Positions 1,150 to 17,100 of a DNA stretch of 34,746 nt are shown one piece after another. The notes beneath the pieces were generated by a model that searched no databases, was not told the origin of the DNA, and worked only from the letters and a program-made list of their open reading frames with translations. Made by a program: the position numbers and the translations under genes. Source of the stretch: Nitrospiraceae bacterium. Lineage in GTDB: Bacteria > Nitrospirota > Thermodesulfovibrionia > UBA6902. The stretch is from assembly GCA_003599505.1 (NCBI GenBank), contig QZKO01000082.1:1-34746 (forward strand), given 5' to 3'. Within the stretch, counting starts at the first letter, position 1. Each line of letters begins with the position of its first letter.

Positions 1150-2373
1150 TCAGTGGTGAATTTTTCTTCTGTAGTCCGTCCATCTGAGAAACGCGTAAAA
1201 GACGATCAGGATTGTCATTGTAGTTATAAAAGCAGTTTCCAGGCCGAACTGGTAAGGCAATACTTCAAACTTTCTGTAAACCCAGGAACCCTTCAGCATC
1301 AAGATAATGGCAGGCCTTAAAGCGATCACAAGCATTGCGCCAAGCAATGCGAACCAATGTCTTACATACCCCTCGGCGGACCGCCAGAGCATTCCGCTTA
1401 CTCAGCCGCCGGTGATGGTCATGCCAAAACCAAGAATCGCGCCACCAAGGAGGGGGCGCAAGCTTGTCTGGAAGACATATGAATTCAGCGGCTTAAGTCC
1501 TATCGCCATAATGACAGTAAATCCTGCAACTCCCACTGCCAGGCTGATAATCAGACTTCGCATCATGCGCGTAGTCCTGGTGACAAATATTTCCCTGAAG
1601 GCGGCGGCGAAACAGAATGCGGACCTCTGAAAAATTACCCCGAAGAGCATGCCGGAAAGAAACGCTGCGGCAGGAAATTCCGTTCCGATAACTACATCGA
1701 CAGAAACAACAGTTAATACAAGGACCGCCCCGACAACGGCAATTTTGGGTTGCATATGTCTATAATCTTTATTGACAACATCGGTTCCTGGTCCCGTCTT
1801 CAGGAGAGAATCCGTGCTGAATAATTTTTCAGCCTGCCTGTTTATCTGCCACATCACGAATTTCCCACCGATATAAGCGCCCGCTAACAACCCTGACATC
1901 ATTACAAAGCCGTCCAGGGATAAGCCCATAATGTCCGAATATACGCCGCCCAGGATGCACCAACCGGCTATAAAGCAGCCGATTCCCATCAAGGCCCCAC
2001 CGACAAAGCCCTGAATATAGCCGCCGACTTTTTCTCTTTTCAGACTGAACTGTTTTGCCAACAACGCAGATAAAAAAACCCCTGCCATCAGACCGATGTA
2101 CAGAATACTTTGCGCGAATAATCTTGAAGTACGCAAAAAGCTCACAGGTGACTGGAGATCCATTGAAGCTGTTTTATATACCCATCTTCCCCACTCGGCA
2201 ATAACTGCATTTGTTGCACCTATTGGACCTGAATACACAAACAACAGTATATTCAGTAACGCAAGGGTCACCCCGCCTACCTCCGAAGGCCATTTTTCTT
2301 CAAAAATTTTATTATAAAATCCGGAAGGCATTTTCTCTGTTAATTGTAACAAAGAATTCCACTTATTCTCCAT
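1150..2373 (-). CDS. YeeE/YedE-family transporter, probable selenoprotein (in-frame UGA read as Sec)
   Basis: Two adjacent open frames (1402-2373 and 1150-1392) are in the same frame, separated only by a single TGA at 1402-1404. Read through, they give one 407-residue polytopic membrane protein of normal YedE length. The first part has the family motifs MGIGCFIAGWCILGG and FQRSAFCFAAAFREIF. The TGA is residue 324 in the context GMTITGG-U-VSGMLWRSAEGY, where YeeE/YedE proteins normally have cysteine (GGC-x-SG-x-LWR-x-GEG). YeeE/YedE proteins move sulfur species such as thiosulfate through conserved cysteines, and a YedE subgroup is linked to selenium metabolism. A SECIS-like hairpin follows the UGA directly. 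The alternative is a nonsense mutation; intact reading on both sides and the hairpin argue against it. Confidence 0.82.
1372..1404 (-). promoter_or_regulatory. Putative bacterial SECIS element following the UGA codon
   Basis: Reading the minus strand, the UGA (1404-1402) is followed by 12 bases, then CUC, a single unpaired U, GGC, loop GGUCC, GCC, GAG. This is a stem-loop with a bulged U on the 5' side, three pairs above it, three below it and a GGUC-type loop. The E. coli fdhF SECIS has the same plan: GGU, bulged U, GCA, loop GGUC, UGC, ACC, starting 11 bases after its UGA. SelB recognises the bulged U and loop G-U. The match was made by eye, not by a covariance search. Confidence 0.75.
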
Positions 2374-2454
2374 ACCATGACACTTCCTGTACGCTCTGAG
2401 TTCTTTATTATTTCAATCATGAGGCGGGGTAAGGTCCTGAACGTGTTTGCCTTG

Positions 2455-2628
2455 CTACTTCGGTTCCCTGCAGTTATCGCCCCCGCAGGGATAATAAACA
2501 GAAAAAGCCTTTTTCATCTTTTCAAGGGCTTCCTGCTGTGTCCTGCCCTTTGCGGTAAAACCGGGGATGTCCATGCTCTTTACAATCCATTCGCCTGTTT
2601 CGTCTTCATACACTATCAGCTTTTTCAT
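2455..2628 (-). CDS. HicB-like (UPF0150) small protein, 57 aa
   Basis: ATG at 2628 opens a 57-codon frame that ends in TAG at 2455-2457. The protein begins MKKLIVYEDETGEWIVKSMD, continues IPGFTAKGRTQQEALEKMKKAF and ends YYPCGGDNCREPK. The beta-strand, P-G-F-x-A/T-x-G-x-T-x-x-E-A-L-x-x-M pattern is that of HicB-type antitoxin folds. There is no HicA-like toxin gene beside it and no DNA-binding tail, so this is an orphan HicB-fold protein, not a demonstrated toxin-antitoxin pair. It lies 22 bases after the DUF1059 gene on the same strand, so the two are probably cotranscribed. Confidence 0.72.
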   Translation of the reverse strand: MKKLIVYEDETGEWIVKSMDIPGFTAKGRTQQEALEKMKKAFSVYYPCGGDNCREPK

Positions 2629-2650
2629 TTTCCCGGCGTATGCTTCTCTC

Positions 2651-2830
2651 TTATTTCACGTCCCTGATCGTGGCTATTATTCTTGCTTTCATACTCTCCG
2701 ACATATCTTTCATGTTGTGTTTAATTACGCCGTGTTTGGCAATTTTTCTGAGAATTTCTTCACGTGTTTCGGCGTGGCATTTCCAGTTACATGCCCCCCC
2801 GAAGTCCCTGCATCTGAACACCTTTGCCAT
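2651..2830 (-). CDS. DUF1059 family small protein, 59 aa
   Basis: I choose the ATG at 2830, with AGGAAT/GAGGTG just upstream, over an earlier in-frame ATG that would add 16 unrelated residues. The protein begins MAKVFRCRDFGGACNWKCHA, then has a helix ETREEILRKIAKHGVIKHNM and ends in ARIIATIRDVK. Cysteines in RCRDxGxxCxWxxxA and the H-x-x-x-x-H spacing (KHGVIKHNM) are typical of DUF1059, whose function is unknown. The Cys/His set could bind a metal. It heads a likely two-gene unit with the HicB-like protein. Confidence 0.78.
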   Translation of the reverse strand: MAKVFRCRDFGGACNWKCHAETREEILRKIAKHGVIKHNMKDMSESMKARIIATIRDVK

Positions 2831-2920
2831 ATTCCTGCACCTCTTGAAGGTTCTGACAAAAAGTATACCAGAGAACAAACAAAAGTCAATAAAATGAACT
2901 GTACGGAAGGGGGTAACGCT

Positions 2921-3247
2921 TCACTCCAGTGATTTCACGAACTTCCTGTATCTTTCAGGCGGCTTGATGATTTCCATGCCCATACTGAATGACGTGCCGT
3001 GGGGGGAAGTCTTCGCCTGGAACCATCTTATCTCACAATCCATGTTCAATGCTTCTCCTGAAGGGAGCCTGCATTTCAGTTTTATTCCGGAATGGTTATC
3101 GATCTCCGCGAACTTGTCCGAAGTGGCGGTTACCATATACAGACCGTCTTCAGAAAAATTCATGACGATTCCGGAATACATTGTGTCGCCGGCGGTCAAC
3201 TCGGCGTCAAGGTTTTCGATTATCCTTCTGCCTCGTCTTTTTTCCAT
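2921..3247 (-). CDS. PilZ domain protein
   Basis: A 108-residue protein starting MEKRRGRRIIENLDAELT. The ATG at 3247 is preceded by GGAGG at good spacing, so I reject a 23-residue upstream extension. It has basic residues ahead of the barrel (R4-R5, R7-R8), the turn NFSEDGLYMVTA, and a closing strand with MGMEI. These match the PilZ barrel; the N-terminal arginines may be the c-di-GMP-binding RxxxR-like motif, and an S-x-D-G variant stands in for D/N-x-S-x-x-G. It is probably a stand-alone c-di-GMP receptor. It is divergent from marC, whose promoter lies about 100 bases upstream. Confidence 0.75.
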   Translation of the reverse strand: MEKRRGRRIIENLDAELTAGDTMYSGIVMNFSEDGLYMVTATSDKFAEIDNHSGIKLKCRLPSGEALNMDCEIRWFQAKTSPHGTSFSMGMEIIKPPERYRKFVKSLE

Positions 3248-3330
3248 GGTTGCCTCCACCTCTCCGATAATGAATCTTAGTATACCAGAATACGGCGGGG
3301 ATGGTAAAATTTCCACCCTCTTTCCGGTCT

Positions 3331-3359
3331 TTGACGAATCAGGAATTTACGTCTATAAT
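3331..3359 (+). promoter_or_regulatory. Sigma70-type promoter of marC, leaderless arrangement
   Basis: TTGACG at 3331-3336 and TATAAT at 3354-3359 are separated by 17 bases, a near-consensus pair. The expected transcription start, about 7 bases past the -10, falls on the A of the ATG at 3366. No Shine-Dalgarno sequence precedes the ATG. Confidence 0.78.
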
Positions 3360-3365
3360 CTATCT

Positions 3366-3953
3366 ATGCTCGAAATCCTGGAAAGTCTGCCGATGACATT
3401 CATACCCATCTTTGTCGCTATGGACGTGTTTGCCGTTCTCCCGATTTTCATATCGGTGACATGCGAAATTCCGGCAGACGGAAGAAAAGCCGTTATCAGA
3501 CAGTCGATCATTACGGCGCTGGCGGTAAGCCTTATCTTTGTTGCCGTCGGAGAGGTTGTTTTCAGAATCCTCAGTATATCCGTTGATGACTTTAAGATAG
3601 CCGGCGGTCTCGTTCTGCTTGTTATCGCGGTGCTTGATCTCGTGCGCTTCGGCGGGGAGCGGAGGCGGCCCGAAGACGCTGTCGGCGTTGTGCCCATCGG
3701 CGTGCCCCTGATAGTAGGGCCCGCGGTGCTTACCACACTCATTGTGCTCATTGACCACCACGGAATTTTTCCAACGGTCATATCGCTTATTCTGAACCTC
3801 GCCATTGTGTGGATTTCTTTTGTACGGGCTGAAGATATAACGAGGATGATAGGCAAAAACGGAATCGTGGCGCTTTCAAAGGTAATGGCGATCCTCCTTG
3901 CCTCCATCGCAGTAATGATGATAAGGCTCGGCGTCGAGAACTTAATAAAATAA
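3366..3953 (+). CDS. MarC family integral membrane protein
   Basis: 195 residues, the usual MarC length, with about six hydrophobic segments. The segment ISVDDFKIAGGLVLLVIAV corresponds to the MarC family's conserved I-x-x-F-x-I-A-G-G region, and PIGVPLIVGPAVLTTLIVL to its P-x-x-x-P-x-x-x-G-P-G-x-I-x-x-x-x region. The open frame extends upstream to 2964 but would overlap the PilZ gene and its promoter on the other strand. The ATG at 3366 places the start right where the promoter predicts transcription begins. The function of MarC proteins is not established; the old link to multiple antibiotic resistance in E. coli was withdrawn. The thioesterase gene follows after 7 bases. Confidence 0.88.
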   Translation: MLEILESLPMTFIPIFVAMDVFAVLPIFISVTCEIPADGRKAVIRQSIITALAVSLIFVAVGEVVFRILSISVDDFKIAGGLVLLVIAVLDLVRFGGERRRPEDAVGVVPIGVPLIVGPAVLTTLIVLIDHHGIFPTVISLILNLAIVWISFVRAEDITRMIGKNGIVALSKVMAILLASIAVMMIRLGVENLIK

Positions 3954-3960
3954 TATAATT

Positions 3961-4350
3961 ATGGAACTCATTGACGACGGTTACTGTTTTGTTTGCGGGA
4001 CTGAAAACCCCGCTGGACTGAAGCTGAAATTTATCTTTGACGGCAGGACCATAAGAACCGAATTTGTTCCGAAGAAAGAACATCAGGGGTATTACAACAT
4101 CGTCCACGGCGGCATCATTTCAACGCTGCTTGATGAGGCTATGGTCAAGCTCGCAATAGAATCGGGTATGCCCGCGGTCACCGCTCAAATGGATGTCCGG
4201 TTGAAAAAGGCGTTAAACATCGGTGAGAAGATAACTGTTCAGGCAGAGATAGTGAGGGATACGAAAAGGCTCCTAACGGCTTACGCAAAAGCAGTAACCA
4301 TAGACGGGGTGGTTGTCGCCGACGCAACCGGGAAACTGATGAAAGTATGA
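3961..4350 (+). CDS. Hotdog-fold PaaI-type thioesterase
   Basis: A 129-residue single hotdog domain. The motif HGGIISTLLDEAM (H49 to M61) is the PaaI/4HBT2-type thioesterase signature in which H-G-G and the following Asp position the thioester. A C-F-V-C-G-x-x-N-P-x-G-L N-terminal motif (residues 9-20) is typical of a subgroup annotated as PaaI family thioesterases. It hydrolyses acyl-CoA or another acyl thioester; the substrate is not predictable. It follows marC by 7 bases with no Shine-Dalgarno (upstream is AT-only), so translation probably depends on coupling with marC. Confidence 0.85.
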   Translation: MELIDDGYCFVCGTENPAGLKLKFIFDGRTIRTEFVPKKEHQGYYNIVHGGIISTLLDEAMVKLAIESGMPAVTAQMDVRLKKALNIGEKITVQAEIVRDTKRLLTAYAKAVTIDGVVVADATGKLMKV

Positions 4351-4410
4351 AAGTTTTCTTTCAGCCTGCTATTTGGGAAATGACAGATTTCGCACCCTTT
4401 ACAGCGAACT

Positions 4411-7400
4411 TTACCCACACAAATAATCAAAGCATAGTAAGTTTAAATCCTCACGCTTTAAGTTGAACCTTTCGGTTGAGGATATCTCAGTAGACAAACT
4501 TCCATATTTCTCCCTCATAGCGGTTACTTTCTCTACAAGAACCTTTGGTACAGCGTTTTCCTGAAACTCTTTATAAATTTTCCTGAGTTCCTTTACCTGC
4601 GTGCCCGGCATTGGCTGGTTCAGGTACTTGATGATTTCGAGAGCCTCTTTTCTATCGACATCCGGATGGTTCAGATAGTTCTGAATTGTTGTTGCGAGTG
4701 TCTGTTGTATAGGATCAATAACCTTTGGCACGGATTCAAGCGCAACTTTTTCATGATAGGTCTTAAGAATATGCTCGATGATCTTTTCTTGTATCTCAAA
4801 AACATCATAATCACCGATCACCCGTTCCGTTTCCGGTGAGCACGAAATAAGATTTGCTATGAGAAACCGGTTATCTACTATCCTGCCGGTATTGATATCA
4901 TAATAATTCCAGAAATTGTGCTTACCCTTTTCGCTTTCAGCTTGAAAATAAAAGAACATGCCTTTTGCGCCCCTCTTCATTAATCCTGAATGGATTCCAT
5001 TTGGAAGTGAATCTATCCATTTCTTGCCTTCACACGCTAATAATTCCTGAATCTGTCGTAACAGGAATTCACTGCTTGCCAACTCAATAAATTGTTCTTC
5101 CTCATCGACTACGCTCGAATCCTGATCTTCAATCCTCTTAAGGGTATTAAATGTCTTGGGATGTACAACTTCCCCAAGGATGCTTGCGTCAAGAAAACCA
5201 ACCCTGTCTATATTCGATATCTTTCTCTGCAAACTCTCGACAAGCCTCAACAGCCTTTCAAGCCCTTCATCAGGAAACATATTTCTTAACCATAAGGTAT
5301 CAAATTCCGTACCGATACGGTCTATTCTTCCGGCACGCTGCACCATTCTTGTCGGGTTCCAGTGAAGGTCATAATTTATAAGATTTGCACAGTCCTGCAG
5401 ATTTTGTCCTTCTGACAGAACATCCGTTGAGATGAGGATGTTTATTTCATACTCTGTTCCCACCCATTCTTCTTTCTTATTTGCCTTTGGCGCAAAAGCC
5501 TTTACGATATTTCTTCTGCTTTTGGGATCAGCCCCACTGTCCATGCGTTTTATTACAGGATTTCCTATGGCCTTCCTGAATGCCGCCCCTTTGTCCTCTC
5601 CAAGTTCGCTAAATAAATATCGCGCGGTATCCTTGTAATATGTAAAAATTAAAGTCTTTTCCCCTTTGAGCGGTCCTGAAAGTATTTCTTTCAACTTTTG
5701 GAGCTTGATATCTTTTTCAGCGCTTATGCCATTTACCTGGTGCCAGATATCCATGAGAATCTCGATATCATGCTGAACCGCCTCATGAAGCTTTCTCAGG
5801 TTATACTGTGTTGGATCAACCGTCTCCATTGCGCCTATTACAGCTTTTGCCTCATTACTTGAATCTATTTCTTCCGCCCTTGAGGTAGGGGTTGCGTCAT
5901 CCTCCTCCTCTTCTCTTTCGAGATATCTTAGCGCCTTATGAAAATCACTCGATTTGATCAACTTTCCGTCAAGGATATATGACTCAAAGGTCTTCTGGAA
6001 TTCAAGCGCCCTTTTAATGCTTATTCGGAATGCTGCGATACTTGATTCAAACCTCTTCAGGTATCTGCTCTTAAATATTCCGACAAGCGCCTCCTCCCTT
6101 CCAGCCTCAAATTCATCCCTTTTAATGCCTGCCTTCTTGTATGATTCGAGGTTATATGGAGGCAGTTTCAGTTTTTCTATTCCGGTGACAATTTGTTCAT
6201 ATATCCCGCTGTAAGTCTTTTCAAGGTCATAGTATTCTGTTTTCAACTTTCTTTCGGGGAAATGTATTTTTTTGCCCTCTATCATAGCGTCAGGATATGC
6301 CTTCTTAATAAATTGCCTTGTCCTCCTGATTACAACTTCCTCAAGAAGATTAAATAGTGATGTTATACCCTGGCTATCTCCTGATGCGCGTCTTGCAGCA
6401 AGGAAGTATTTATAAAGGTCTCCAATACCTGCTGATGTGAAATAGCCCCTATCTCCACGAGTAAATAAAACCATCTGATTGTAAAGGTCAAACAGGTCAT
6501 TATTGATAGGGGTTGCTGTAAGGAGTATTATCTTCTTTCTTTCTCCTGCCGCGCCTCTTCCTGCATTCAGGCTGATAATGCGCTCAAGGTTTTCGTACCG
6601 TTGGGCGTTCCTGTTTCTAAAATTATGAGATTCATCAACGAGGATAACGTCTGCGTTTCCGTATTCTTCGACAGGGAAATCTGCCTGTCCGATTTCTTCC
6701 TGCGAAAGGATCGTTACTGCAATCGTCGCCTTTTTCAACTCACTATCCCACATATCACGCAATGACGCCGGGCAAACGACAAGCGCTTTCTGTCTCATGT
6801 GATAGGCATAATCTTCAAGGAGCTTCTTCCCTATCCATGTCTTTCCGAGACCAACGGAATCAGCAATCATTACGCCGTCATAGCGCAATAATATCCTCCG
6901 TGCTTTTTTCACGGCGTCTTCCTGAAATTCCGAAAGCTCAACTGCGGAACGTCCGATCTGCTCGGGCACACTGTCAAGGTCATCCCTGAAATATTCATAA
7001 AGCGCCTTCATATAAACCTGATAGGGGGTATATTCTTTTGAGCCGAACTTTGATGCATCAAGCAATTCTATGAATCTTTCCTTATAATCTTCGGCATCCC
7101 CCCACTGTCTCTCAAACCACTGCTCAAGCTCTATAATTGCTCGCGCGCCAACTTCACTTTTTATGAGTTGCCTGTTCTGTGGCTTGATATGTTCGCTTGG
7201 CCTGTTTTCGCTGAGCCATGCTACTGCGGACTGTGCCTGCTTGTCTTCAGCTTCTTCAACATCGAGCAGTACTTTATGGGCAAGGTTTAATTCCCGATTG
7301 CTTGTAAGGCCGGGCAGAGTGAAATTACTTGAACCTACTATCGCCACTACTGGCTTGAACCTTTCAAAAAGCATCTGCTGTCCGGGTTTGTCGGAATAGA

Positions 7401-7782
7401 AGAGGAAACATTTTGCATGAAGAAATCCCTTCGAGTGAAGTTTTAATTCAACATTCTCTCTTCTGAGAAATCGTATGAGGTCTTCAACAAGCCTTAAGGT
7501 CTCTTCGTTAAAAGGTTCTTTTTCCAGATCAGCACGTATAGCTTGATTTAATTTTGAAGGGTCGGGTTTAAGTCCGATATTTTCTCCGGAAGACGGCTCC
7601 TCACCAAGCAAAAGCCTGAAACTTCCAAGTTCTGAAAGTCCATCCTTTATAAGTCTGTATCCCTGAATATTGAAATACGCTGTGACAACATCCATTGACT
7701 GGCCCTGATGATTTCTTAGAATAGCGTTCAGGATGTCAGCCAGCTTATAAGTTTGGTTGTCTATGACGTAGGGGATTATCAT
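4411..7782 (-). CDS. PLD-like nuclease/SNF2-type helicase fusion, defence-associated
   Basis: 1123 residues from the ATG at 7782, which overlaps the abiEii stop as ATGA; an upstream in-frame ATG at 7830 lies inside abiEii and is less likely. The N-terminal third has a phospholipase D-like domain: H122-A-K124 in LHAKCFLF and SSNFT around N153. A superfamily 2 helicase follows: Walker A DSVGLGKT with the lysine at about 314, motif II DESH at 383, motif III LLTATP, and C-terminal motifs STDVLSEGQNLQ and QRAGRIDR at about 815. Such PLD-helicases occur with methyltransferases and restriction systems and probably translocate on and attack foreign DNA. A second PLD HxK is not obvious, so the domain may dimerise. 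It is the last gene of the abiEi-abiEii-helicase unit. Confidence 0.85.
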   Translation of the reverse strand: MIIPYVIDNQTYKLADILNAILRNHQGQSMDVVTAYFNIQGYRLIKDGLSELGSFRLLLGEEPSSGENIGLKPDPSKLNQAIRADLEKEPFNEETLRLVEDLIRFLRRENVELKLHSKGFLHAKCFLFYSDKPGQQMLFERFKPVVAIVGSSNFTLPGLTSNRELNLAHKVLLDVEEAEDKQAQSAVAWLSENRPSEHIKPQNRQLIKSEVGARAIIELEQWFERQWGDAEDYKERFIELLDASKFGSKEYTPYQVYMKALYEYFRDDLDSVPEQIGRSAVELSEFQEDAVKKARRILLRYDGVMIADSVGLGKTWIGKKLLEDYAYHMRQKALVVCPASLRDMWDSELKKATIAVTILSQEEIGQADFPVEEYGNADVILVDESHNFRNRNAQRYENLERIISLNAGRGAAGERKKIILLTATPINNDLFDLYNQMVLFTRGDRGYFTSAGIGDLYKYFLAARRASGDSQGITSLFNLLEEVVIRRTRQFIKKAYPDAMIEGKKIHFPERKLKTEYYDLEKTYSGIYEQIVTGIEKLKLPPYNLESYKKAGIKRDEFEAGREEALVGIFKSRYLKRFESSIAAFRISIKRALEFQKTFESYILDGKLIKSSDFHKALRYLEREEEEDDATPTSRAEEIDSSNEAKAVIGAMETVDPTQYNLRKLHEAVQHDIEILMDIWHQVNGISAEKDIKLQKLKEILSGPLKGEKTLIFTYYKDTARYLFSELGEDKGAAFRKAIGNPVIKRMDSGADPKSRRNIVKAFAPKANKKEEWVGTEYEINILISTDVLSEGQNLQDCANLINYDLHWNPTRMVQRAGRIDRIGTEFDTLWLRNMFPDEGLERLLRLVESLQRKISNIDRVGFLDASILGEVVHPKTFNTLKRIEDQDSSVVDEEEQFIELASSEFLLRQIQELLACEGKKWIDSLPNGIHSGLMKRGAKGMFFYFQAESEKGKHNFWNYYDINTGRIVDNRFLIANLISCSPETERVIGDYDVFEIQEKIIEHILKTYHEKVALESVPKVIDPIQQTLATTIQNYLNHPDVDRKEALEIIKYLNQPMPGTQVKELRKIYKEFQENAVPKVLVEKVTAMREKYGSLSTEISSTERFNLKREDLNLLCFDYLCG

Positions 7783-8612
7783 CTCTTTTTTCCCGCAATT
7801 TTGTGAAACGTCGCTGTCCATTCCTTCCATGCAAGATCAAAATCCGGAAGCTCATTCAGCATAGGCCCAAGACGGTCTCGCCAGGCATTTTTATTCCATT
7901 CCTTGAGTTTAGCGGATGTCAGCCCGGCCGTATCAGGTTTGATTTCCCTGACACGGCATTTCTCCTGAAGCAGTGGTTGTAATTCTTTCCATGTAAAGTG
8001 TTCACCGTAGCGGCACAGCATATACCAGAGATCGTATAAATCTCTTGGACGAGGCCATTTCTTCTGCTGTTGAAGAAGGGACCGAAGCTTCTCCGCAACA
8101 ATTTCTTTTTTCGAATATGAGTATACCTTGAAATGAGAGAGATCAGAATATTGAGGCTTGATAGAACAGATAACCGGCTTTTCAAGAATAGGCTCGTCGA
8201 AAGTTAGATGTACTTTGACCTGAGGCAGTCCCCGCCTGCGAGATCCGCCACGGCTGTACTCGACAGGAATCTCTATCTGGAAGTCTCCGGGGATAGTTGC
8301 AGCCTCTCTTACAGTAAGCCTAATACCTGATTCGCTTTGTACACGGTCTGCGGCTTTTTGCAACAATTGCAATGATGTACTAAGATTATCGCCTCCGGGT
8401 TTGCAACTGAAATCAATATCTTCAGAAAACCTGTATCCTTTGTAATAACAGTGTCTAAGACAAGTCCCGCCCTTAAAGACCCATCCATGCTTTGTCATTC
8501 CTGAATGCACCAATCCTGACAGGAGCCACAGAATAACATAATCCTTCTCTGTCTGATCAAAACGGAGACCTTCTTCTTCAGACAAGCGATGCAGTTCTGC
8601 AGTCGTTATCAT
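7779..8612 (-). CDS. abiEii: AbiEii-type nucleotidyltransferase toxin
   Basis: 277 residues with the DNA polymerase beta-like nucleotidyltransferase signature of AbiEii/type IV toxins: WVFKGGTCLRHCYY (GGT at 48-50) followed by FSEDIDFSC (D65, D67). Downstream are the conserved KKEIVAEKLRSLLQQ and RPRDLYDLWYML motifs. AbiEii toxins transfer nucleotides to tRNA or related targets and stop growth during phage infection. The start overlaps the abiEi stop as ATGA, and its own stop overlaps the helicase start as ATGA, so the three genes are translationally coupled. All motif residues are present, so the toxin should be active. Confidence 0.9.
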   Translation of the reverse strand: MITTAELHRLSEEEGLRFDQTEKDYVILWLLSGLVHSGMTKHGWVFKGGTCLRHCYYKGYRFSEDIDFSCKPGGDNLSTSLQLLQKAADRVQSESGIRLTVREAATIPGDFQIEIPVEYSRGGSRRRGLPQVKVHLTFDEPILEKPVICSIKPQYSDLSHFKVYSYSKKEIVAEKLRSLLQQQKKWPRPRDLYDLWYMLCRYGEHFTWKELQPLLQEKCRVREIKPDTAGLTSAKLKEWNKNAWRDRLGPMLNELPDFDLAWKEWTATFHKIAGKKR

Positions 8613-9445
8613 ACCTTTATCTCCGTATTAACCAAGAGTCCCCAACGGCGATTGAATTTTCCGTGACGCGGTAGTGCAGGATCAAGTGAAGAAAAGCCCG
8701 GCGCAAGAGTGACTACCTTTCGGAGCTTTTCAACATCTCCTAATCCAAGAATTTCCATCAGAAACCCAAGACGCTTGGCAACTGCGCTGTTTCCGATCTT
8801 GACTGCGTATTTTCGCAGTTTGGATTCGTCGAGCTGCGTCCAGACAGATGAAAGCGCTTTAGCGATTTCATCCACCCCTCCAACGTATTGTGGAAGATCC
8901 AGTCCATCTATGATTGTCTTCTCCCTATCAGTAACCATAAAGGGCATCTCGTCAATCCAGTCTTTGACTACGCCAAAAAACTTTCCGGGCTTCAAAGAGA
9001 TTATCTTGTAATTTGTGCCGAGCACCTCACCGGGATGCCGGCGCACAGGATGGTCGGTGGCTACAAACACGGTTCGTGGAAGCTGTTCAGTCATGCCGTG
9101 ATGATTAAGCGCAGACCAGTATGCAATCGTTGCCGGTGATACCAGTTCCATGGCTACAATGAACTCATGCAGTTGCGGGGTCCGACTTTCTCCTGATGAG
9201 AGTGGGATGACGGCGAATCTTCCGCGCCTGATGCGTCTGATCCAGCCCTTGTGCTGAAGCCGTTCAAGGAATTTCTGGGTTGAGTCCTCACCCTTGTAAC
9301 CCAGTATATCTTGCGCCTCTCCGGTAGTGAACGCAGCCTTCCCGCTTACTCTGGCCAGAAATCTCGCTTCAGACCTGCCCAGCGAACCACGTGTTATATT
9401 TTGTGCGCCTTTTACGGGCTTTGTATGACCGGTTACGGCATGCAT
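8609..9445 (-). CDS. abiEi: AbiEi-type antitoxin/transcriptional repressor
   Basis: 278 residues. After a basic N-terminal extension of about 25 residues there is a winged-helix region (FTTGEAQDILGY and FLERLQHKGWIRRIRRGRFAV) and then the AbiEi C-terminal region, including ATIAYWSALNHHGMTEQ and TDREKTIIDGLDLPQYVGG. AbiEi neutralises AbiEii without binding it and represses its own operon through inverted repeats. Just such a repeat lies 7 bases upstream of the start. The ATG at 9445 has no Shine-Dalgarno (TTATATT precedes it) and sits where transcription should begin, suggesting leaderless translation. Confidence 0.9.
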   Translation of the reverse strand: MHAVTGHTKPVKGAQNITRGSLGRSEARFLARVSGKAAFTTGEAQDILGYKGEDSTQKFLERLQHKGWIRRIRRGRFAVIPLSSGESRTPQLHEFIVAMELVSPATIAYWSALNHHGMTEQLPRTVFVATDHPVRRHPGEVLGTNYKIISLKPGKFFGVVKDWIDEMPFMVTDREKTIIDGLDLPQYVGGVDEIAKALSSVWTQLDESKLRKYAVKIGNSAVAKRLGFLMEILGLGDVEKLRKVVTLAPGFSSLDPALPRHGKFNRRWGLLVNTEIKV

Positions 9446-9451
9446 AATATA

Positions 9452-9479
9452 ACTTATAGGAATAGCAGCTATAAGTCAA
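9452..9479 (-). promoter_or_regulatory. abiE operon promoter overlapping an inverted-repeat operator
   Basis: A perfect 8-base inverted repeat, ACTTATAG (9452-9459) and CTATAAGT (9469-9476), is separated by 9 bases. On the minus strand TTGACT (9479-9474) and TATAAG (9458-9453) form a -35/-10 pair with a short 15-base spacer, covered at both ends by the repeat. AbiEi is known to bind inverted repeats in its own promoter, so this is the likely autoregulatory operator. The rest of the 175-base gap 9446-9620 shows no other gene. Confidence 0.62.
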
Positions 9480-9620
9480 GGAATTATTTATTTTTGTATA
9501 AAATATGTTGCGCAAAGCGGAGGGAGAATAAAAACAGGTGGTTTAATGGGATTATATTTGCCCGAATTGTTTCAACTCACCAATAAACAACTAATGCCGG
9601 CTTTCTCTCGGGATAGTCAG

Positions 9621-9815
9621 TTAATTAGAAGATTCTTGAGAGACTGGTATGTCTTCGGGTTTAAGCCAGACGATTTCTCCGTCCTGCCAGACTACTATTG
9701 AATTACCGGTCTGTTTATGCCGGAGCAGGGCGGACTGCACACCACGTCGCAAGGCTTCGTCAACCAATGTCCCTTCTTCAAAAATCTCATCAATTGTCTT
9801 ACGATTGCTTCCCAT
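9621..9815 (-). CDS. Small protein paired with the zeta-toxin-like kinase
   Basis: 64 residues, starting inside the 3' end of the kinase gene (17-base overlap). The protein begins MGSNRKTIDEIFEEGTLVDE, has a helical middle (ALRRGVQSALLRHKQTGNSI) and ends VVWQDGEIVWLKPEDIPV. The strand-like end with D-G-E-I-V resembles small proteins commonly encoded next to zeta-like AAA/P-loop kinases. It may be the antitoxin, but that is inferred from position and size only. No DNA-binding motif is evident. Confidence 0.68.
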   Translation of the reverse strand: MGSNRKTIDEIFEEGTLVDEALRRGVQSALLRHKQTGNSIVVWQDGEIVWLKPEDIPVSQESSN

Positions 9816-10401
9816 GTATAAATTGTCTCATAATTGTATCCCAAGTTTCAACATCAATGACTTTATCGTATTCCTGTCCGCGTCCGGATGCGATCAATCT
9901 CGGACCGGTTGGTTTGGAATTATCATAAAATCTCCATGTATCCGACAATACCTGATAAAGCTTGAAAAAGTTTTCCAGTCCTGTGCGATAGCGGCGGCGA
10001 ATGGTAGCTTCAGGCACATCATGGCCTCCCGTCCGTACCCGTTCAGCAACTCTCGCAACGGCGAAGTCGTCATTGGGCAGATAAAGAAAAACAAGGTGAA
10101 AATCATATCCCGATGCTTTGAGTTCTGCAATCCACGGTGCAAAAGATCTGCTTGCCAATGTTGTCTCAAAGGCAAAATCAACTTGTTTGTGTGCCAGATA
10201 GTGAAGGCGCTCAAGCATGACACGCCCGGCATGAAAAGCCGTCATTTCGGGGTGAAAGGCAGACAGTCCCTGCGCAATTAAATCAGCGTTCACAAATTCA
10301 GTAACATCGAGAGTTCCTTTTAATAGAGAAGGCGCTGTTGTGGATTTTCCTGCTCCGTTTGCTCCTGCAATTACAATAAGATGTGGGTGCTTCGCAATCA
10401 T
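9799..10401 (-). CDS. Zeta-toxin-like P-loop kinase
   Basis: 200 residues. The N-terminus LIVIAGANGAGKSTTAPSL carries a Walker A with K19. It is followed by FVNADLIAQGL and DFAFETTLASRSF, the pattern of zeta toxin / COG4185 small P-loop kinases, then VARVAERVRTGGHDVPEATIRRRY with the R-x-R-x-x-x-G-G-H-x-V-P signature. Zeta toxins phosphorylate UDP-N-acetylglucosamine and block cell-wall synthesis; the COG4185 branch is less characterised. The ATG overlaps the TGA of an upstream methyltransferase-derived fragment as ATGA, suggesting it once followed a complete methyltransferase gene. Confidence 0.85.
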   Translation of the reverse strand: MIAKHPHLIVIAGANGAGKSTTAPSLLKGTLDVTEFVNADLIAQGLSAFHPEMTAFHAGRVMLERLHYLAHKQVDFAFETTLASRSFAPWIAELKASGYDFHLVFLYLPNDDFAVARVAERVRTGGHDVPEATIRRRYRTGLENFFKLYQVLSDTWRFYDNSKPTGPRLIASGRGQEYDKVIDVETWDTIMRQFIHGKQS

Positions 10402-10484
10402 GTTTTTCTCCCCTCCACGATCTTTATCTCTTCCTCGGTCAGGCCGTACAATTTATATACGATCTGGTCTATGAGCCAGTCGGT
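10398..10484 (-). pseudogene. Fossil 3' end of an Eco57I-like methyltransferase gene (copy A)
   Basis: The minus strand encodes TDWLIDQIVYKLYGLTEE followed by EIKIVEGRKT and a TGA that overlaps the ATG of the kinase gene. This pattern (IDxxVYxLYGLTEEEIxIVE) is what I recognise as the usual C-terminus of Eco57I-type methyltransferases. Upstream the frame is closed by a TAA one codon before. It is a close relative of copy B at 14049-14129: 16 of the 25 aligned codons are identical, seven differ synonymously and two differ in amino acid. Confidence 0.75.
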
Positions 10485-10537
10485 TTGTTATAAAGTTTTG
10501 ACAAAGTAATATCATATTTTATGGAGCTGGATTACAA

Positions 10538-13009
10538 TTATGTCTTTATTTTTGTTGGCACTTTGATCTTATTTGCAACTGTGGTATAAATATCCACCTC
10601 TGATTCAGGTGTTTTTATTGTTACTACGAGAGAATACCGGGCTTTCTTGTTCCATCTTCCTAACTGATGTCGTTCACGCCACCAGCCAATCACAGGGTAT
10701 ACGCCGATAAGTCCCCTTGATGCAAGGTCAGCCGCAGTACCTTCCCATCTATCAGAATGTATAGAGCCTCGCCCCCTCAGAGTGGGTCCTAAAAGCCAGT
10801 TTGATGCGTCACTCTCTGAAGTTTTACCTGCCTCTTCCTCTCTTGCAGCTTTATTGATTCGGCTTCTGAACTCATTATCCGATTCAGTAGCAGTTTTTAC
10901 ATCAAACCTTAATCCGTGAGAGGCATATCTATGGCGGCGTATCCAGCCTCGTCTTGCAGGATTGGGCTCAATAAAGTAGGACAATGTAACTTTCATTTCT
11001 ACAGGAGATTCTCCTAAATCTTGCAGTATTTCAACAGGCCAGGGGATCTCATGAAGATGCATATCATGAGTTTTATACTCACTGCCATCTTTATCAAATG
11101 GCTGGAGAGCATCCTGGACTATTAACGTTAGCGAATTTCTGGCACTCCAAATTGCGTCAGCCAAATTGGGGACTCCGAACCCGCAGTATCTCAATAGATT
11201 TTCTGTGTTGTTGCGTGGCGTCGAATTACTGAAATGTATTTTCATCGCCTCATTCCAGTCTGCTGAATGAACTATTAGAGCTCGTACTGTTTCAGGCCAG
11301 AAATCAGGATAATTCGCATAAATGATCGCAGACATTCGCGAAGCAATAGCGGTAGCAGCGCTCGTATCTCCTGTGGTGACAAATTGTTTTGATGCTGGAT
11401 GATAGTAGGTTGTTAACAATTGCAGACTATCAACGTAGTCTACTGTCCTTGTACCTGGATTATGCGCCATATTACCGCCTTCAAATACTACGTCAGGCTT
11501 TAGTGGCCATTGTCTCGCCCACGGTACAGAGGTACAGCTTGACGGGCTCAAATCCCCCGGAGGAGCTATGGGTGTCCACCCAGGATACATCCTCTGATCG
11601 ATTTGAATTTTTTCTGTATACGCTCCTACAGTTAAAGCATTCCAAGCCTGACCGGGATCATGAATTCCGTCCGTCATATTACAGTCAGGATATTGAATTC
11701 GGGAATCGAGATTAGTGTTCCCTGCCGCTACTATGATTAACCGTCGGTGTTCATCATCTGCTCCTGAACTCATATTATCAATTGCAGCAGACCAGGAAGA
11801 AGGCTGTCCCCGATCTCTGAAATCAGTCGTAGTGACGGCCATACATGCAACACGATTTCTGTTTGGCGCCGTAACTTCAGCGCGTGCAATTGATTCAATC
11901 GTTATGTGGCCGTATAGTTCAGGATCATTTTGTCCGTCAGGGGGAAGAATTTTAACCGATTCAAGTATATGCGTAAGTTTTATAGGATCACTTGAAAGCA
12001 ATATTTGAGTAAGATCATCGTATAATGCCAGTCCAGCCATCTCGGTGCCGTGTCCTTTATGATCTGCAACGTTCCATGCATGGTCATATGAGTGCATATC
12101 TGATAAATTTAGAGCCGGTGCGATCAACGGATGCCCGTTATTGACGCCACTGTCGAGGATACATACAGACGGAGCATTCTTTGCCGGACCTTTTAAACGC
12201 GATAATGCTTCTTTTACCCAGTCAGTTTGTTCTGTTGGGGTCATTTGCATAAAAGCTTCTGATGTTTCTTTTGCTTTTCTCAGTTCTGCTATACAGTTCA
12301 GCAAATCAATGGACTTACTCATTTGATCTTTATTGCCATAAGTCAAAACTATTGTACGGTCAGGAAATTTTATTTCCCCGTTCCTTATGCATAGTCCCAA
12401 TTTCTCTGAATGGTTTTTAAAGAATTCTAATATGGAATCCCTATCTTTTCCGGCTCTGAGCCAGACTTCCCACCAAATTTCTATTCCGTCTGCTGGGAAC
12501 TCGTTATCATCATCTGTCCATAAAGCTTTGACCGCAGCCTTATGGATATCTGAGATACTTTCAATCAAAGGCTGATTTTTGGGATTTCCTTTTTTGCTTT
12601 GCTCGGTCAAATATTTATCTATCTGTTTGACAAAATAAGATAATTTCCCCTCCGGGACAAAGACGGTCGCATATGTTTTTCTGTCAAGTTCTCTGACTGC
12701 GAGCAACTCAATCCCTTGGCGGAAGGATTCCAGACTTTCAAGTTTAAGAGAAAAATCGGGGTCGCTCTCGAACTGCAAACAAATGCCGTTCCCGACATCT
12801 ATACCATAAGCCGCCCTTTCCTGCTTGAGAGATTTATCCTCTTCCTGAATGCGCTCAAACTGTCGTTTCAAAAACGTCCCGTGGTCCTGCCGGATTCGAT
12901 CAGGAGTTCCTATTTTTTGTCCTCCACTCTTAGGGGATGTATAGCGCTCGGTCTTGGATGTGCCTTCTAATAAAAGATGAGGAAATTGGGGAGAGTTTTT
13001 ATCTTCCAT
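10538..13009 (-). CDS. ietS: Subtilisin-like S8 serine protease, IetS-like
   Basis: 823 residues. The N-terminal 270 residues have no clear domain. The S8 catalytic triad is present: D286 in VCILDSGVNNGHP, H320 in HKGHGTEMAG and S550 in TTGDTSAATA, with the oxyanion asparagine in IIVAAGNTN. There is no signal peptide, so it acts in the cytoplasm. A subtilisin protease encoded directly after a AAA ATPase is the layout of IetAS, first described for plasmid incompatibility and later reported as an anti-phage system. It begins 8 bases after the stop of ietA. The nucleophile context GDTSAA differs from the common GTSMA, as in many intracellular S8 members of defence loci. Confidence 0.85.
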   Translation of the reverse strand: MEDKNSPQFPHLLLEGTSKTERYTSPKSGGQKIGTPDRIRQDHGTFLKRQFERIQEEDKSLKQERAAYGIDVGNGICLQFESDPDFSLKLESLESFRQGIELLAVRELDRKTYATVFVPEGKLSYFVKQIDKYLTEQSKKGNPKNQPLIESISDIHKAAVKALWTDDDNEFPADGIEIWWEVWLRAGKDRDSILEFFKNHSEKLGLCIRNGEIKFPDRTIVLTYGNKDQMSKSIDLLNCIAELRKAKETSEAFMQMTPTEQTDWVKEALSRLKGPAKNAPSVCILDSGVNNGHPLIAPALNLSDMHSYDHAWNVADHKGHGTEMAGLALYDDLTQILLSSDPIKLTHILESVKILPPDGQNDPELYGHITIESIARAEVTAPNRNRVACMAVTTTDFRDRGQPSSWSAAIDNMSSGADDEHRRLIIVAAGNTNLDSRIQYPDCNMTDGIHDPGQAWNALTVGAYTEKIQIDQRMYPGWTPIAPPGDLSPSSCTSVPWARQWPLKPDVVFEGGNMAHNPGTRTVDYVDSLQLLTTYYHPASKQFVTTGDTSAATAIASRMSAIIYANYPDFWPETVRALIVHSADWNEAMKIHFSNSTPRNNTENLLRYCGFGVPNLADAIWSARNSLTLIVQDALQPFDKDGSEYKTHDMHLHEIPWPVEILQDLGESPVEMKVTLSYFIEPNPARRGWIRRHRYASHGLRFDVKTATESDNEFRSRINKAAREEEAGKTSESDASNWLLGPTLRGRGSIHSDRWEGTAADLASRGLIGVYPVIGWWRERHQLGRWNKKARYSLVVTIKTPESEVDIYTTVANKIKVPTKIKT

Positions 13010-13017
13010 GTATTACA

Positions 13018-13998
13018 TTACTTTTCTAATATTGCCTTACGTTCAGAAAGAGCCCTCATTATGTCTTCGGCGGTAAGATTATTTAGGTCACTAATAATCA
13101 TCTCTTTAACTGCTTCCTCACATGCACGCGTAATCTCTGCGTAATTAAGCCCGGCAGCCACCTCCGATATTTTATTCCAATTGATTTTCCCCCTAATATG
13201 GGGGACTAATCCGGCTTTAAGAGTATCAATTATTTGTTTGGGATTAGGTAGGGAATACTGGATAACATCATCAAATCTTCTATACAGGGCATAATCAAGC
13301 AAGTCAGGATGATTCGTGGCAGCCAGAATCAGGCTGTCGGATTCATCTTGTTCAATAAATTGCAGGAAGCTATTTAAGACTCTGCGAATTTCACCAACAT
13401 CATTTATCAAACCTCGCTGCGTTCCAATTGAGTCAAATTCATCAAACAAATACACCCCTCGTGTCTCTGCAATTGCATCAAATACAATCCTCAACTTGGA
13501 TGCGGTCTCTCCCATATATTTTGTAATCAACCCATCTAAACGAATTACAAACAGAGGAAGACCGAATTCTCCGGCCAGAGCAGATGCAGACATTGTTTTT
13601 CCAGTTCCGGGGGGACCTATTAAAAGCAGTTTACGCCGGGGGGAGAGGCCATGAGTCCGTATTTTATTAAGTTGGCGCTGTTCTCTTACGATGCGATTTA
13701 ATCTTGAAGCAATATTTTTGCTGAGTATCATGTCAGACAATCGTATTTTTGGGTAAGATACAGATAAAAGCGCAGAAAGATCACCTTTAGGTCTTGCAAT
13801 CGGAATCGGTTTTTGTGAAATCTGAGAAGCCTGTTTCGATTTGGCATCATCAATTAAAGCGCGCAATTCCTGGGCAAGTTTTCCGTGTCCCTGCTTCGCT
13901 TCATGGGCGGCAACTTGCATTGCTACCGCAAAAAAACGAGGGTCATCACCGTCAATGTAACTTTTTAAAAGTGCTTTAAGTTGCTCAGCGCTTGCCAT
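13018..13998 (-). CDS. ietA: AAA ATPase, IetA-like
   Basis: 326 residues with a single AAA module: Walker A LLIGPPGTGKT (K134), Walker B GVYLFDEFDS (D186), sensor 1 LILAATNHPD, and an arginine-finger region YRRFDDVIQYSLP. The N-terminal 95 residues are helical (KALLKSYIDGDDPRFFAVAM) and may bind the protease or trigger. Single-AAA ATPases of this CDC48/FtsH-like type paired with S8 proteases form the IetAS defence pair. A TATAAT lies just upstream, so the cassette probably has its own promoter. The start ATG at 13998 has only a weak CGGA upstream. Confidence 0.85.
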   Translation of the reverse strand: MASAEQLKALLKSYIDGDDPRFFAVAMQVAAHEAKQGHGKLAQELRALIDDAKSKQASQISQKPIPIARPKGDLSALLSVSYPKIRLSDMILSKNIASRLNRIVREQRQLNKIRTHGLSPRRKLLLIGPPGTGKTMSASALAGEFGLPLFVIRLDGLITKYMGETASKLRIVFDAIAETRGVYLFDEFDSIGTQRGLINDVGEIRRVLNSFLQFIEQDESDSLILAATNHPDLLDYALYRRFDDVIQYSLPNPKQIIDTLKAGLVPHIRGKINWNKISEVAAGLNYAEITRACEEAVKEMIISDLNNLTAEDIMRALSERKAILEK

Positions 13999-14015
13999 GG
14001 TATTCCGTTAGCTTA

Positions 14016-14021
14016 ATTATA
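14016..14021 (-). promoter_or_regulatory. -10 element of the ietAS promoter
   Basis: Reading the minus strand, TATAAT lies 17 bases before the ietA ATG and follows a TTTTG run. The only -35-like hexamer is a distant TTGTAT with a 20-base spacer, so the promoter is supported mainly by the -10. The leader would be about 10 bases. Confidence 0.45.
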
Positions 14022-14048
14022 CAAAAGTATTTTTCATTTTCATACAAC

Positions 14049-14129
14049 TTATTTTCCCTCCACGATCTTGATCTCTTCCTCAGTCAGCCAGTACAGTTTA
14101 TAAACAATCCGGTCTATAAGCCAGTCGGT
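14049..14129 (-). pseudogene. Fossil 3' end of an Eco57I-like methyltransferase gene (copy B)
   Basis: Directly after the TGA of the intact methyltransferase and in the same frame, the minus strand encodes TDWLIDRIVYKLYWLTEE then EIKIVEGK and TAA. It is homologous to copy A and also, more weakly, to the intact enzyme's own C-terminus (VIDKVLFKCYGLSEDEGEYI), so a second C-terminal end is stacked behind the first. This is best explained as the remnant of a different methyltransferase gene left after replacement. Confidence 0.75.
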
Positions 14130-17100
14130 TCACAGCATTTCCTTCAACCGTTTACTGATATATTCTCCTTCATCTTCCGAAAGCCCATAACACTTAAACA
14201 GCACCTTATCAATAACATCCTGTATCACCTGGCTGTCAGGCGCAAGGGATGAGCGTTCCTGTCTGTTTTTCAAAACTCTTTGACCTTCTATCTTTTGAAT
14301 TTCCCGGCATAGTTCAGACAACGCATCGGCCACGGGTTTCGGCATAACGCCCGGCTCCGTGCAACTTTCGCACAACGATGATGAAAGAGCATCCCACTGC
14401 TTGCCTTTAAGCAGTTCTTTCCATTTGACTCTTTGTCCGGTTTCAGAGAATGACGGGACAGGCAAGGCATTGAACTGGTATTCGTTTATCATCGCATTTG
14501 TGCTAACGAGCCTAAAATACCAATCAAGGATTTTGGAGTTTAATAAGGCTATCAACAAATCGAGATCGATTTTACTCCCTGATGCAGAAATGTATTTGAG
14601 TTTATCAAAGCAAAATACACCTTCAGGTAACATTGCAGCTATGAGTCTTCTAAAATTGTTTTGGGGTGCACTTCTCTGAATACCAATGCGTTTATGGAGA
14701 TGAGCAAATGCTCTGCTATTTTCTGATTTGCCCTTTAAATATGCTTTAACATTTAACCTCAATTCCTCGCCTTGAGAGGCTTCTCTTAGCGCATATAAGG
14801 TGACATTAGACCCACGGATAATAATCGGTCCCTTGTTGTCGGCGCTTATAAACTCTCGATGCGTAAGCGCATGTAATTCTCCCTCAAATAGCTTTGCGAT
14901 ATTGCCCATTGGTTGTATTGCGCCATGTCGGATTAAACCGACCAAATCCCAATCGCGTTGCGAACAAGAAGGGATTGTTAAATTTTCCTCATCAAATGCA
15001 AGAATATCGTCAGGTGTGACGGATAACACTTGAGCATTTTTCTCAATCAGCTTTCCTGGATGAGTACGTATCGTGAACTTTCTCCCTTTGCGTGCAATCC
15101 GCGTAACAAGAATAATCGTAGAAAGCTTAGCCTCTGCAAAAACTCGATTCTGGGGATCATCCTTTTGCGGGAAAGCTTCAATCGCAATCAACCCCGTTTT
15201 CTCTAAAATCATTTTGCGTAAACCGGTCGCCTGTTCATCACCGAGAAGCGACATTGGCACAACATAAGAAAATGTCCCATTTGCCTTTGTTATGCTGAGC
15301 CCGCGACAAATGAAAAACTTATTGAGATTACGCGCACCACAAATTGCTGGCTTGTATGCAGCGACCGACATGAAGTATTCATTCCCTCTTGTCATCTCAA
15401 ACCCAAGTTCCTCACTCGCAAGCACATCATACGGCGGATTGCCGACCACCGCATCGAATCCCGGATTTTCTTTCTCCTTCCCTTTCCCATAAAAAACCTC
15501 CGGATATTCCAGTTCCCAATGAAAGAACCGTTTTTCTTTGGCAGCATTTATTGCAGTCTGTGCAATCGTCCTGTCACTTACGGAAAGATTGCTCAATGAT
15601 TTGTTAAGGTCTTTGGTGTTTATAAACTTCTCTGCTTCTCCACTTTTCAAAAAATCCATTGCAGGTGATGAATCTTTTTTCTTCTTGCCTTTGCCGTCTC
15701 CGCTGTTTCCGAACCATTGGCTAACATACACATCGAGTATTCGCCTGAAAGGAGCGAGGCTGTCACTTGCCCTCCTATATTCGTTGCGAGATTCTTTGAC
15801 CTGTGAGGCAGTAACATCTGATAATTCCCCGACATGTCTCATTAAATCGGTTGCAAGCATGAGGCCGGCAAATCTGCCACCAAAAAGAGTAACCTGATGA
15901 TCGGTTGCCTCAACTTCTCTCCATTCTTTCCCAGAAACTGCTACTTTGGACTTACTGCTTATCCGCGTAACCGGCTCGACAGCTTCACGAACCTCTTGAA
16001 CACTGGCCCCTATCAGCGAATTCCCGCATTTAAGATGATGATCAAGGAAAGAAAGCGGCGCGCCGAGGGTGAAGCAATCCAGCCAGAGTGAGACCTTCGC
16101 AAGCTCAACCGCCATCGGATTTAAATCAACACCGTAAATGCATCTCTTGAGCACATGGCGTTTGAGGAGATTAAGGTCATTCAGGCGAGATTCATCTATA
16201 GTAATACCCTGCGTTTCCATCGCTTTCAATATGGTCTCTCTTGTCTCTCTGAGAGTCGTCATAACAGGATTCCAGGGAAAGCCGTTCAGGAAATCAATCA
16301 TCTTGTCCGTGATGAAATCAACCGCCTCGACAAGGAAATGTCCGCTTCCCATTGCCGGATCAAGGACCTTCATGTCAAACAAATCATCAACGAGACTGCT
16401 GTAAGTAAATGCCGTCTTATCAGGGTTATCGCCCTTCTGTCCTCTTTTTTCAAAAGCCTCTTTTCTTTTGACAGCTTCTCTGTATGTCTTCTGAGCTTCT
16501 CTGAATTTCGGAGTAAGTGCATTGAACTTTTCTCTGAGCACGGGACCGACAGTGTTTTCCACGATGTATTTGACAATGTAATCAGGTGTGTAATATGAGC
16601 CGGTGGCCTTTCTCTCATGCTTTGTATTTTCCAGATAGACCGCGCCATCCGGTAGAATCCGCTCCTCAGCGCTTTTACCCCTACCTGCCTTTAGTATCTT
16701 CCTCTTTTGTTTGATAGCCTCTGTATAGGGAATGATCTCCTCGGTCTTTTTCCCTTCGCATATAGCCATCTTCTCCGGTGCAATTCGGACATGGAATTCA
16801 AGAAGTCCTTCATAAATACTTCCAAGATGCCGCACGCCAAGAGATTTGTAATCTATAAATACACGTTTAAAGGTTTTATCATCTTCGTCTCTTGTAAGAA
16901 GATCTAATCCGATTGCAAGGAATTTATCAGGAAGCTTGTTCTCAAGCAGGAACCTGGCGTTTTCAGCCTCATGATTATCATCAGTATCAAGGTTTGTCAT
17001 GAAAAGGCCGCCATTGTAAGCAGGGGCATTTATGGTTGCATCACCTAAGTCAATTGCTTTAAAAAGTATCTGAAGCCTGTCGTACAGGGCTGTGGAATGT

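Follow-up and report, generated by a model that had tools for sequence, protein, structure and literature searches.

A YeeE/YedE-family transporter gene of a subsurface Nitrospirota bacterium with an in-frame UGA, probably read as selenocysteine, at the position of a relay cysteine

A known relative of the protein considered here is TsuA/YeeE of Spirochaeta thermophila (PDB 6leo, 8k1r). Its Cys293, Cys91, and Cys22 are the first, second, and third cysteines of a relay that runs at right angles to the membrane (PMC11073785), and the transporter cannot do without Cys91 or Cys293 (PMC11582611). A selenoprotein of the YeeE/YedE thiosulfate transporter family has also been listed (PF04143, motif GUxSG, WP_012471001.1; PMC13188914, PMC9312934), and the main texts of the 2008 and 2016 surveys cited for it do not name YeeE/YedE. 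DsrE-like UxxC selenoproteins were listed as well (PMC13188914, PMC1088965). YedE-type proteins are found together with sulfur-transfer proteins in the YTD, or yeeE-tusA-dsrEFH, type II cluster (PMC13293266, PMC9751629), and no word beginning with "selen" occurs in the main texts of these two reports. Since Sec-containing YeeE/YedE proteins with the GUxSG site are already in selenoprotein reviews, the discovery at the level of the family is not new, which limits the surprise. What is added here is a Nitrospirota clade with evidence for a putative SECIS element, a predicted structural position for Sec, and a paralogous operon that appears to join YedE(Sec) and DsrE(Sec).

The window, which is the whole 34,746-nt stretch of DNA that was analyzed, comes from a subsurface Nitrospirota bacterium and contains a complete YedE-type transporter gene on the minus strand (1150-2373). 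The start codon ATG lies at 2371-2373, and residue 15 offers a possible internal start. The sequence-only reading of this DNA had described two open frames parted solely by a TGA, and this was borne out: nothing but the TGA at 1402-1404 (minus strand) breaks the frame, and this TGA is codon 324 of a joined product of 407 aa, which a plain ORF caller splits into proteins of 323 and 80 aa, as had been predicted. The context of the codon is GMTITGG-U-VSGMLWRSAEGY, at the place of the GGC cysteine of the family. The two other conserved cysteines were also retained as had been claimed, namely C139 in GWCILGG (codon 1957-1959, minus strand; invariant in 21 sequences) and C254 in SAFCFAAAF (codon 1612-1614, minus strand; at least 90% conserved).

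The joined protein belongs to the Pfam family Sulf_transp (PF04143), with 155.8 bits against a gathering score of 27. Its top NCBIfam match was the YedE/FdhT family of selenium metabolism (NF033796), at 133.6 bits and below the cut-off of 350, with which it is collinear over nearly its whole length. The scores against TIGR04112 (YedE putative selenium transporter; 22.4 bits, cut-off 200) and the TsuA families NF052577 (93.5 bits, cut-off 400) and NF041049 (77.9 bits, cut-off 645) were lower still, and the TsuA matches fell into two stretches. NF033796 and TIGR04112 differ from the window protein in that they use Cys, and the window protein scores far under their cut-offs. With the previously listed selenoprotein it shares the Pfam family and the GUxSG site (here G-U-V-S-G), a likeness of family and motif only; that selenoprotein was listed on computational grounds, with no mechanism given. 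In place of GUxSG, the paralogues in the clade carry GUAAG, GUVVG, GUAVG, or GUVTG. Searches of plasmid DNA and proteins returned nothing or only remote YedE relatives.

The UGA was conserved throughout the clade, beyond what chance would give. The same column held TGA in 18 of 18 genes, comprising the window gene, five orthologue-type copies (50-70% identity to it), and 12 paralogues (about 40-45%), which were spread over the window genome and eight other genomes of the genus and family. These hosts are Nitrospirota MAGs (Nitrospirae, Nitrospiraceae, Thermodesulfovibrionia), and their sample names include groundwater and mines. Every homologue compared outside the clade carried Cys in column 324, including six of the same order or family with ~30% identity, eight from Chloroflexota, Thermodesulfobacteriota, Zixibacteria, and others with 34-36%, and more distant ones. 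The alignment to YeeE/YedE homologues and the comparison of related genomes at this codon, both suggested from the sequence alone, thereby confirmed a Cys/UGA column. When 32 proteins were placed in a tree, the Sec genes fell on one side of a branch with a support of 97/92; because the tree has long branches, with warnings for L035 and L132, a single origin of the Sec clade is likely rather than proven.

The part of the gene beyond the UGA was under purifying selection. For pairs of window orthologues, pN/pS was 0.32-0.42 after the UGA and 0.29-0.34 before it. It was also low on both sides in the other usable pairs, and the value for L041/L053 was discarded as an alignment artefact. These results indicate that the read-through region is being kept as a protein sequence. 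The window gene showed no frameshift and no extra stop, and the random stop with decay that had been named as a refuting outcome was not seen.

A candidate bSECIS hairpin was located at 1372-1389 (minus strand), shortly after the UGA, with the structure CUC-U-GGC-[GGUCC]-GCC-GAG. With the U of UGA counted as nt 1, it consists of the lower-stem strand CUC at 16-18, a bulged U at 19, the upper-stem strand GGC at 20-22, the loop GGUCC at 23-27, GCC at 28-30, and GAG at 31-33. GGUC at nt 23-26 with 5-8 bp was found in all 18 UGA genes and GGUC at this place in none of 61 Cys homologues. It was also lacking in each of the eight Cys relatives that retain the peptide RSAEG (Fisher p = 6e-7, uncorrected for relatedness). 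All UGA genes had G as the third base of the Arg codon (nt 24) and C as that of the Ala codon (nt 30), and the synonymous position nt 18 was nearly fixed among them; at all three positions the Cys genes varied. The third base of a Ser codon (nt 27), which is free in the loop, varied in both groups. The subgroup of L041, L042, and L053 builds the same hairpin from different codons, GGCAGGUCUGCC, plus a Trp-to-Gly change. For individual genes, 0.5-3.3% of synonymous-codon shuffles gave a hairpin as good as the observed one. The MFE of a 51-nt stretch of the window was unexceptional (z = 0.37), with a slightly different pairing preferred. A SECIS search on 1340-1404 had been suggested; the hairpin does lie inside this range, and Rfam at gathering and relaxed thresholds gave no SECIS match. 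The case for the putative bSECIS is carried by the comparative evidence and not by MFE or Rfam.

Next to this hairpin, the Cys/UGA column, the clade-wide UGA, and the purifying selection, the genome itself provides evidence for Sec decoding. It encodes SelB (365.1 bits) and SelD (321.2 bits), and selD has its own in-frame UGA at TAGG-U-AAKLG, the classic Sec/Cys site of SelD. Together, these observations upheld the proposal of Sec decoding, and the UGA at 1402-1404 is almost certainly read as Sec, as judged from comparative sequence data. The hairpin just 3' of the UGA would recruit SelB with Sec-tRNA, so that Sec would be inserted instead of a stop. The selD gene lies in L194 at about 4204-5230 (G000 contig C11), where the ORF caller starts downstream of its TGA.

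The search for the Sec genes had a mixed outcome, as selB and the UGA-containing selD were found but selA and selC were not, and this bears on the alternative that the genome recently lost Sec decoding. The UGA would then act as a stop in a gene becoming a pseudogene, with the real selenoprotein gene present in the congeners. Neither selA nor selC was detected in the 95%-complete, 87-contig draft by profile, congener protein, and covariance model searches, and a DNA search with congener tRNA and ARAGORN around selB gave no selC. In some Nitrospirae, selC lies inside or near selB (PMC13188914); ARAGORN found none there in the window genome. Moreover, selB follows proS in this genome, at a place where G005 and G009 have selA directly upstream of selB. 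Against a loss, selA and tRNA-Sec were present in nine of nine congeners, with tRNA-Sec(tca) confirmed by ARAGORN in the three tested, and in three of the nine no more than about 13 kb separates the two genes. Because the draft is 95% complete in 87 contigs and all nine congeners have both genes, an assembly gap is the likely cause of their absence. In addition, selB, the UGA-containing selD and dsrE, and two UGA-containing yedE genes are all intact in the window genome, the window gene is free of frameshifts and further stops, and its pN/pS roughly matches the low values seen between congeners. A recent loss of Sec decoding is thus quite improbable.

Two other readings of the TGA carry a negligible probability. 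The codon was seen in one draft assembly and could as such have arisen by faulty sequencing or assembly or by a simple nonsense mutation, but 17 further genes in this and eight other genomes have the identical TGA and the SECIS hairpin, and independent genomes rule out a read error at 1402-1404. An altered genetic code, with UGA read as Trp or Cys, was considered since an open frame by itself cannot distinguish Trp, Cys, and Sec. It was rejected because TGA terminates genes here and in the congeners, including the window gene; furthermore, UGA was confined to the Cys column and followed by the hairpin, selB is present, and the genus has tRNA-Sec.

The position of this residue was compared with the relay of S. 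thermophila TsuA. A profile of the clade aligned with 6leo in two blocks, the C-terminal half with TsuA 6-111 and the N-terminal half with 230-323, the best piece being the C-terminal half of the window protein against the N-terminal half of TsuA. The order of the blocks was swapped, and the halves are therefore permuted relative to TsuA. Residue matches counted along the alignment placed C254 at Cys22, U324 at Cys91, and C139 at Cys293. The earlier suggestion of Sec at a substrate-relay position thus held in this alignment, with U324 at the middle residue. An AlphaFold model of moderate confidence, with Cys in place of Sec (pLDDT 72.6, pTM 0.71), contained helix breaks at 137-139, 252-254, and 322-324, and its sole significant PDB matches were TsuA entries (TM about 0.5). 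The window protein resembles TsuA in fold and in the three relay positions, and differs in having Sec for the middle Cys and the opposite order of halves (circular permutation). As to half order in general, Chloroflexota YeeE (L142, L144-L149) have that of TsuA and YedE-type relatives (L132-L140) the swapped one, the proteins being otherwise similar. A third Sec-YedE subgroup (L060, L061, L062) has DG-U in place of GG-U and has lost the equivalent of TsuA Cys22 to Gly.

We infer that Sec probably acts as a relay residue. It would sit at a membrane helix break between C139 on the outer side and C254 on the cytosolic side, and a reduced chalcogen would move inward from C139 through U324 to C254, with the selenolate of U324 speeding the central exchange; the cargo would most likely be sulfane sulfur or thiosulfate. 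A Sec-containing YeeE/YedE transporter with such a chalcogen relay is a quite probable explanation of the locus as a whole. Sec in the middle of the path would allow a direct test of what a transporter, rather than an enzyme, gains from selenium: a solved structure exists for the Cys version, and a Sec/Cys swap concerns one residue.

The substrate could be a sulfur or a selenium species. No sulfur or selenium genes adjoin the window gene or its close orthologues: the neighbours of the window gene are DUF1059 and PilZ genes, and those of the orthologues in L120-L122 are chaperonin-like genes, named from sequence, and others. A YedE(Sec) that moves selenide, selenite, or a similar species for Sec synthesis would be a transporter for selenium that is itself a selenoprotein. 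It would agree with the top NCBIfam match to YedE/FdhT, below cut-off as noted, with the proposal of YedE as a selenium transporter or exporter from its co-occurrence with SelD (PMC5322559), and with the neighbourhoods of some Cys relatives of the clade, in which selD and yedF (L135 and L140, both genes above their NCBIfam cut-offs) or a yedF-like gene (L133, a near Cys relative) were found. On the other hand, the window gene has no selenium gene beside it, and in a paralogous subclade represented in the same genome the neighbours are ArsR, DsrE/F/H-like, SQR-like, and DsrE2-like genes, which points to sulfur transfer. Transport of selenium therefore seems rather unlikely, and a sulfur species is slightly favored as the substrate because members of the Sec clade itself sit in sulfur operons. 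A search of the window genome assembly for dsrA found none, which leaves a complete dissimilatory sulfite pathway unsupported here.

The second Sec-YedE gene of the window genome lies in L014 at 3892-5468 (G000 contig C5, about 51.9-53.5 kb). The order of its operon is ArsR, YedE(U), DsrE(U), DsrF-like, DsrH-like, SQR-like, and DsrE2-like. The dsrE gene directly follows the Sec-YedE gene and has its own in-frame TGA (VYL-U-GGC). This type of operon was wholly or mostly kept in L126-L128 and L131, where the YedE(Sec)-DsrE(Sec) pair recurs, and partly in L129 and L134. The dsrE TGA occurred at U-G-G-C in all seven copies checked, and in six of them a hairpin was predicted at a distance of about 18-37 nt from this codon. 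No UGA was found in the SQR-like genes of the operon. The paralogue operon resembles the yeeE-tusA-dsrEFH cluster in placing YedE with DsrE/F/H-, SQR-, and DsrE2-like proteins, and differs in the UGA of both YedE and DsrE and in that no TusA was seen. This comparison concerns the paralogue operon, and the window gene is outside it. Our literature search found no text that joins YedE(Sec) and DsrE(Sec) in one sulfur-relay operon, and a key neighbourhood survey lay outside that search.

We tentatively consider a selenium-armed relay for sulfur import, in which YedE(Sec) might hand sulfane sulfur to DsrE(Sec, U-G-G-C); the window gene would stand apart as a paralogue whose substrate is related but not the same. 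If true, two selenoproteins would together form a group-translocation pathway for chalcogens. Since gene callers split these YedE genes along with the dsrE genes that adjoin some of them, counts of both in surveys of Nitrospirota sulfur-transfer clusters may be wrong.

Further features of the window were noted. The DUF1059 gene (2651-2878, in the region 2400-2878, minus strand) shares the strand of the transporter gene and precedes it, with a small ORF possibly between them; reverse frames resembling this region were also noted near the orthologues in L120, L122, and L123. A defence-island-like stretch (4411-18710, minus strand) contains a PLD/SNF2 helicase (4411-7830), an AbiEii and AbiEi pair (7779-9445), an IetS/IetA-like subtilase and AAA ATPase (10538-13998), and an Eco57I-type methylase of the type IIG/DrmMI kind (14130-18710), all on this strand. 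The PilZ gene (2921-3316, minus strand) shares sequence with the 5' part of a MarC ORF as listed on the plus strand (2964-3953); the true start of MarC is probably further downstream.
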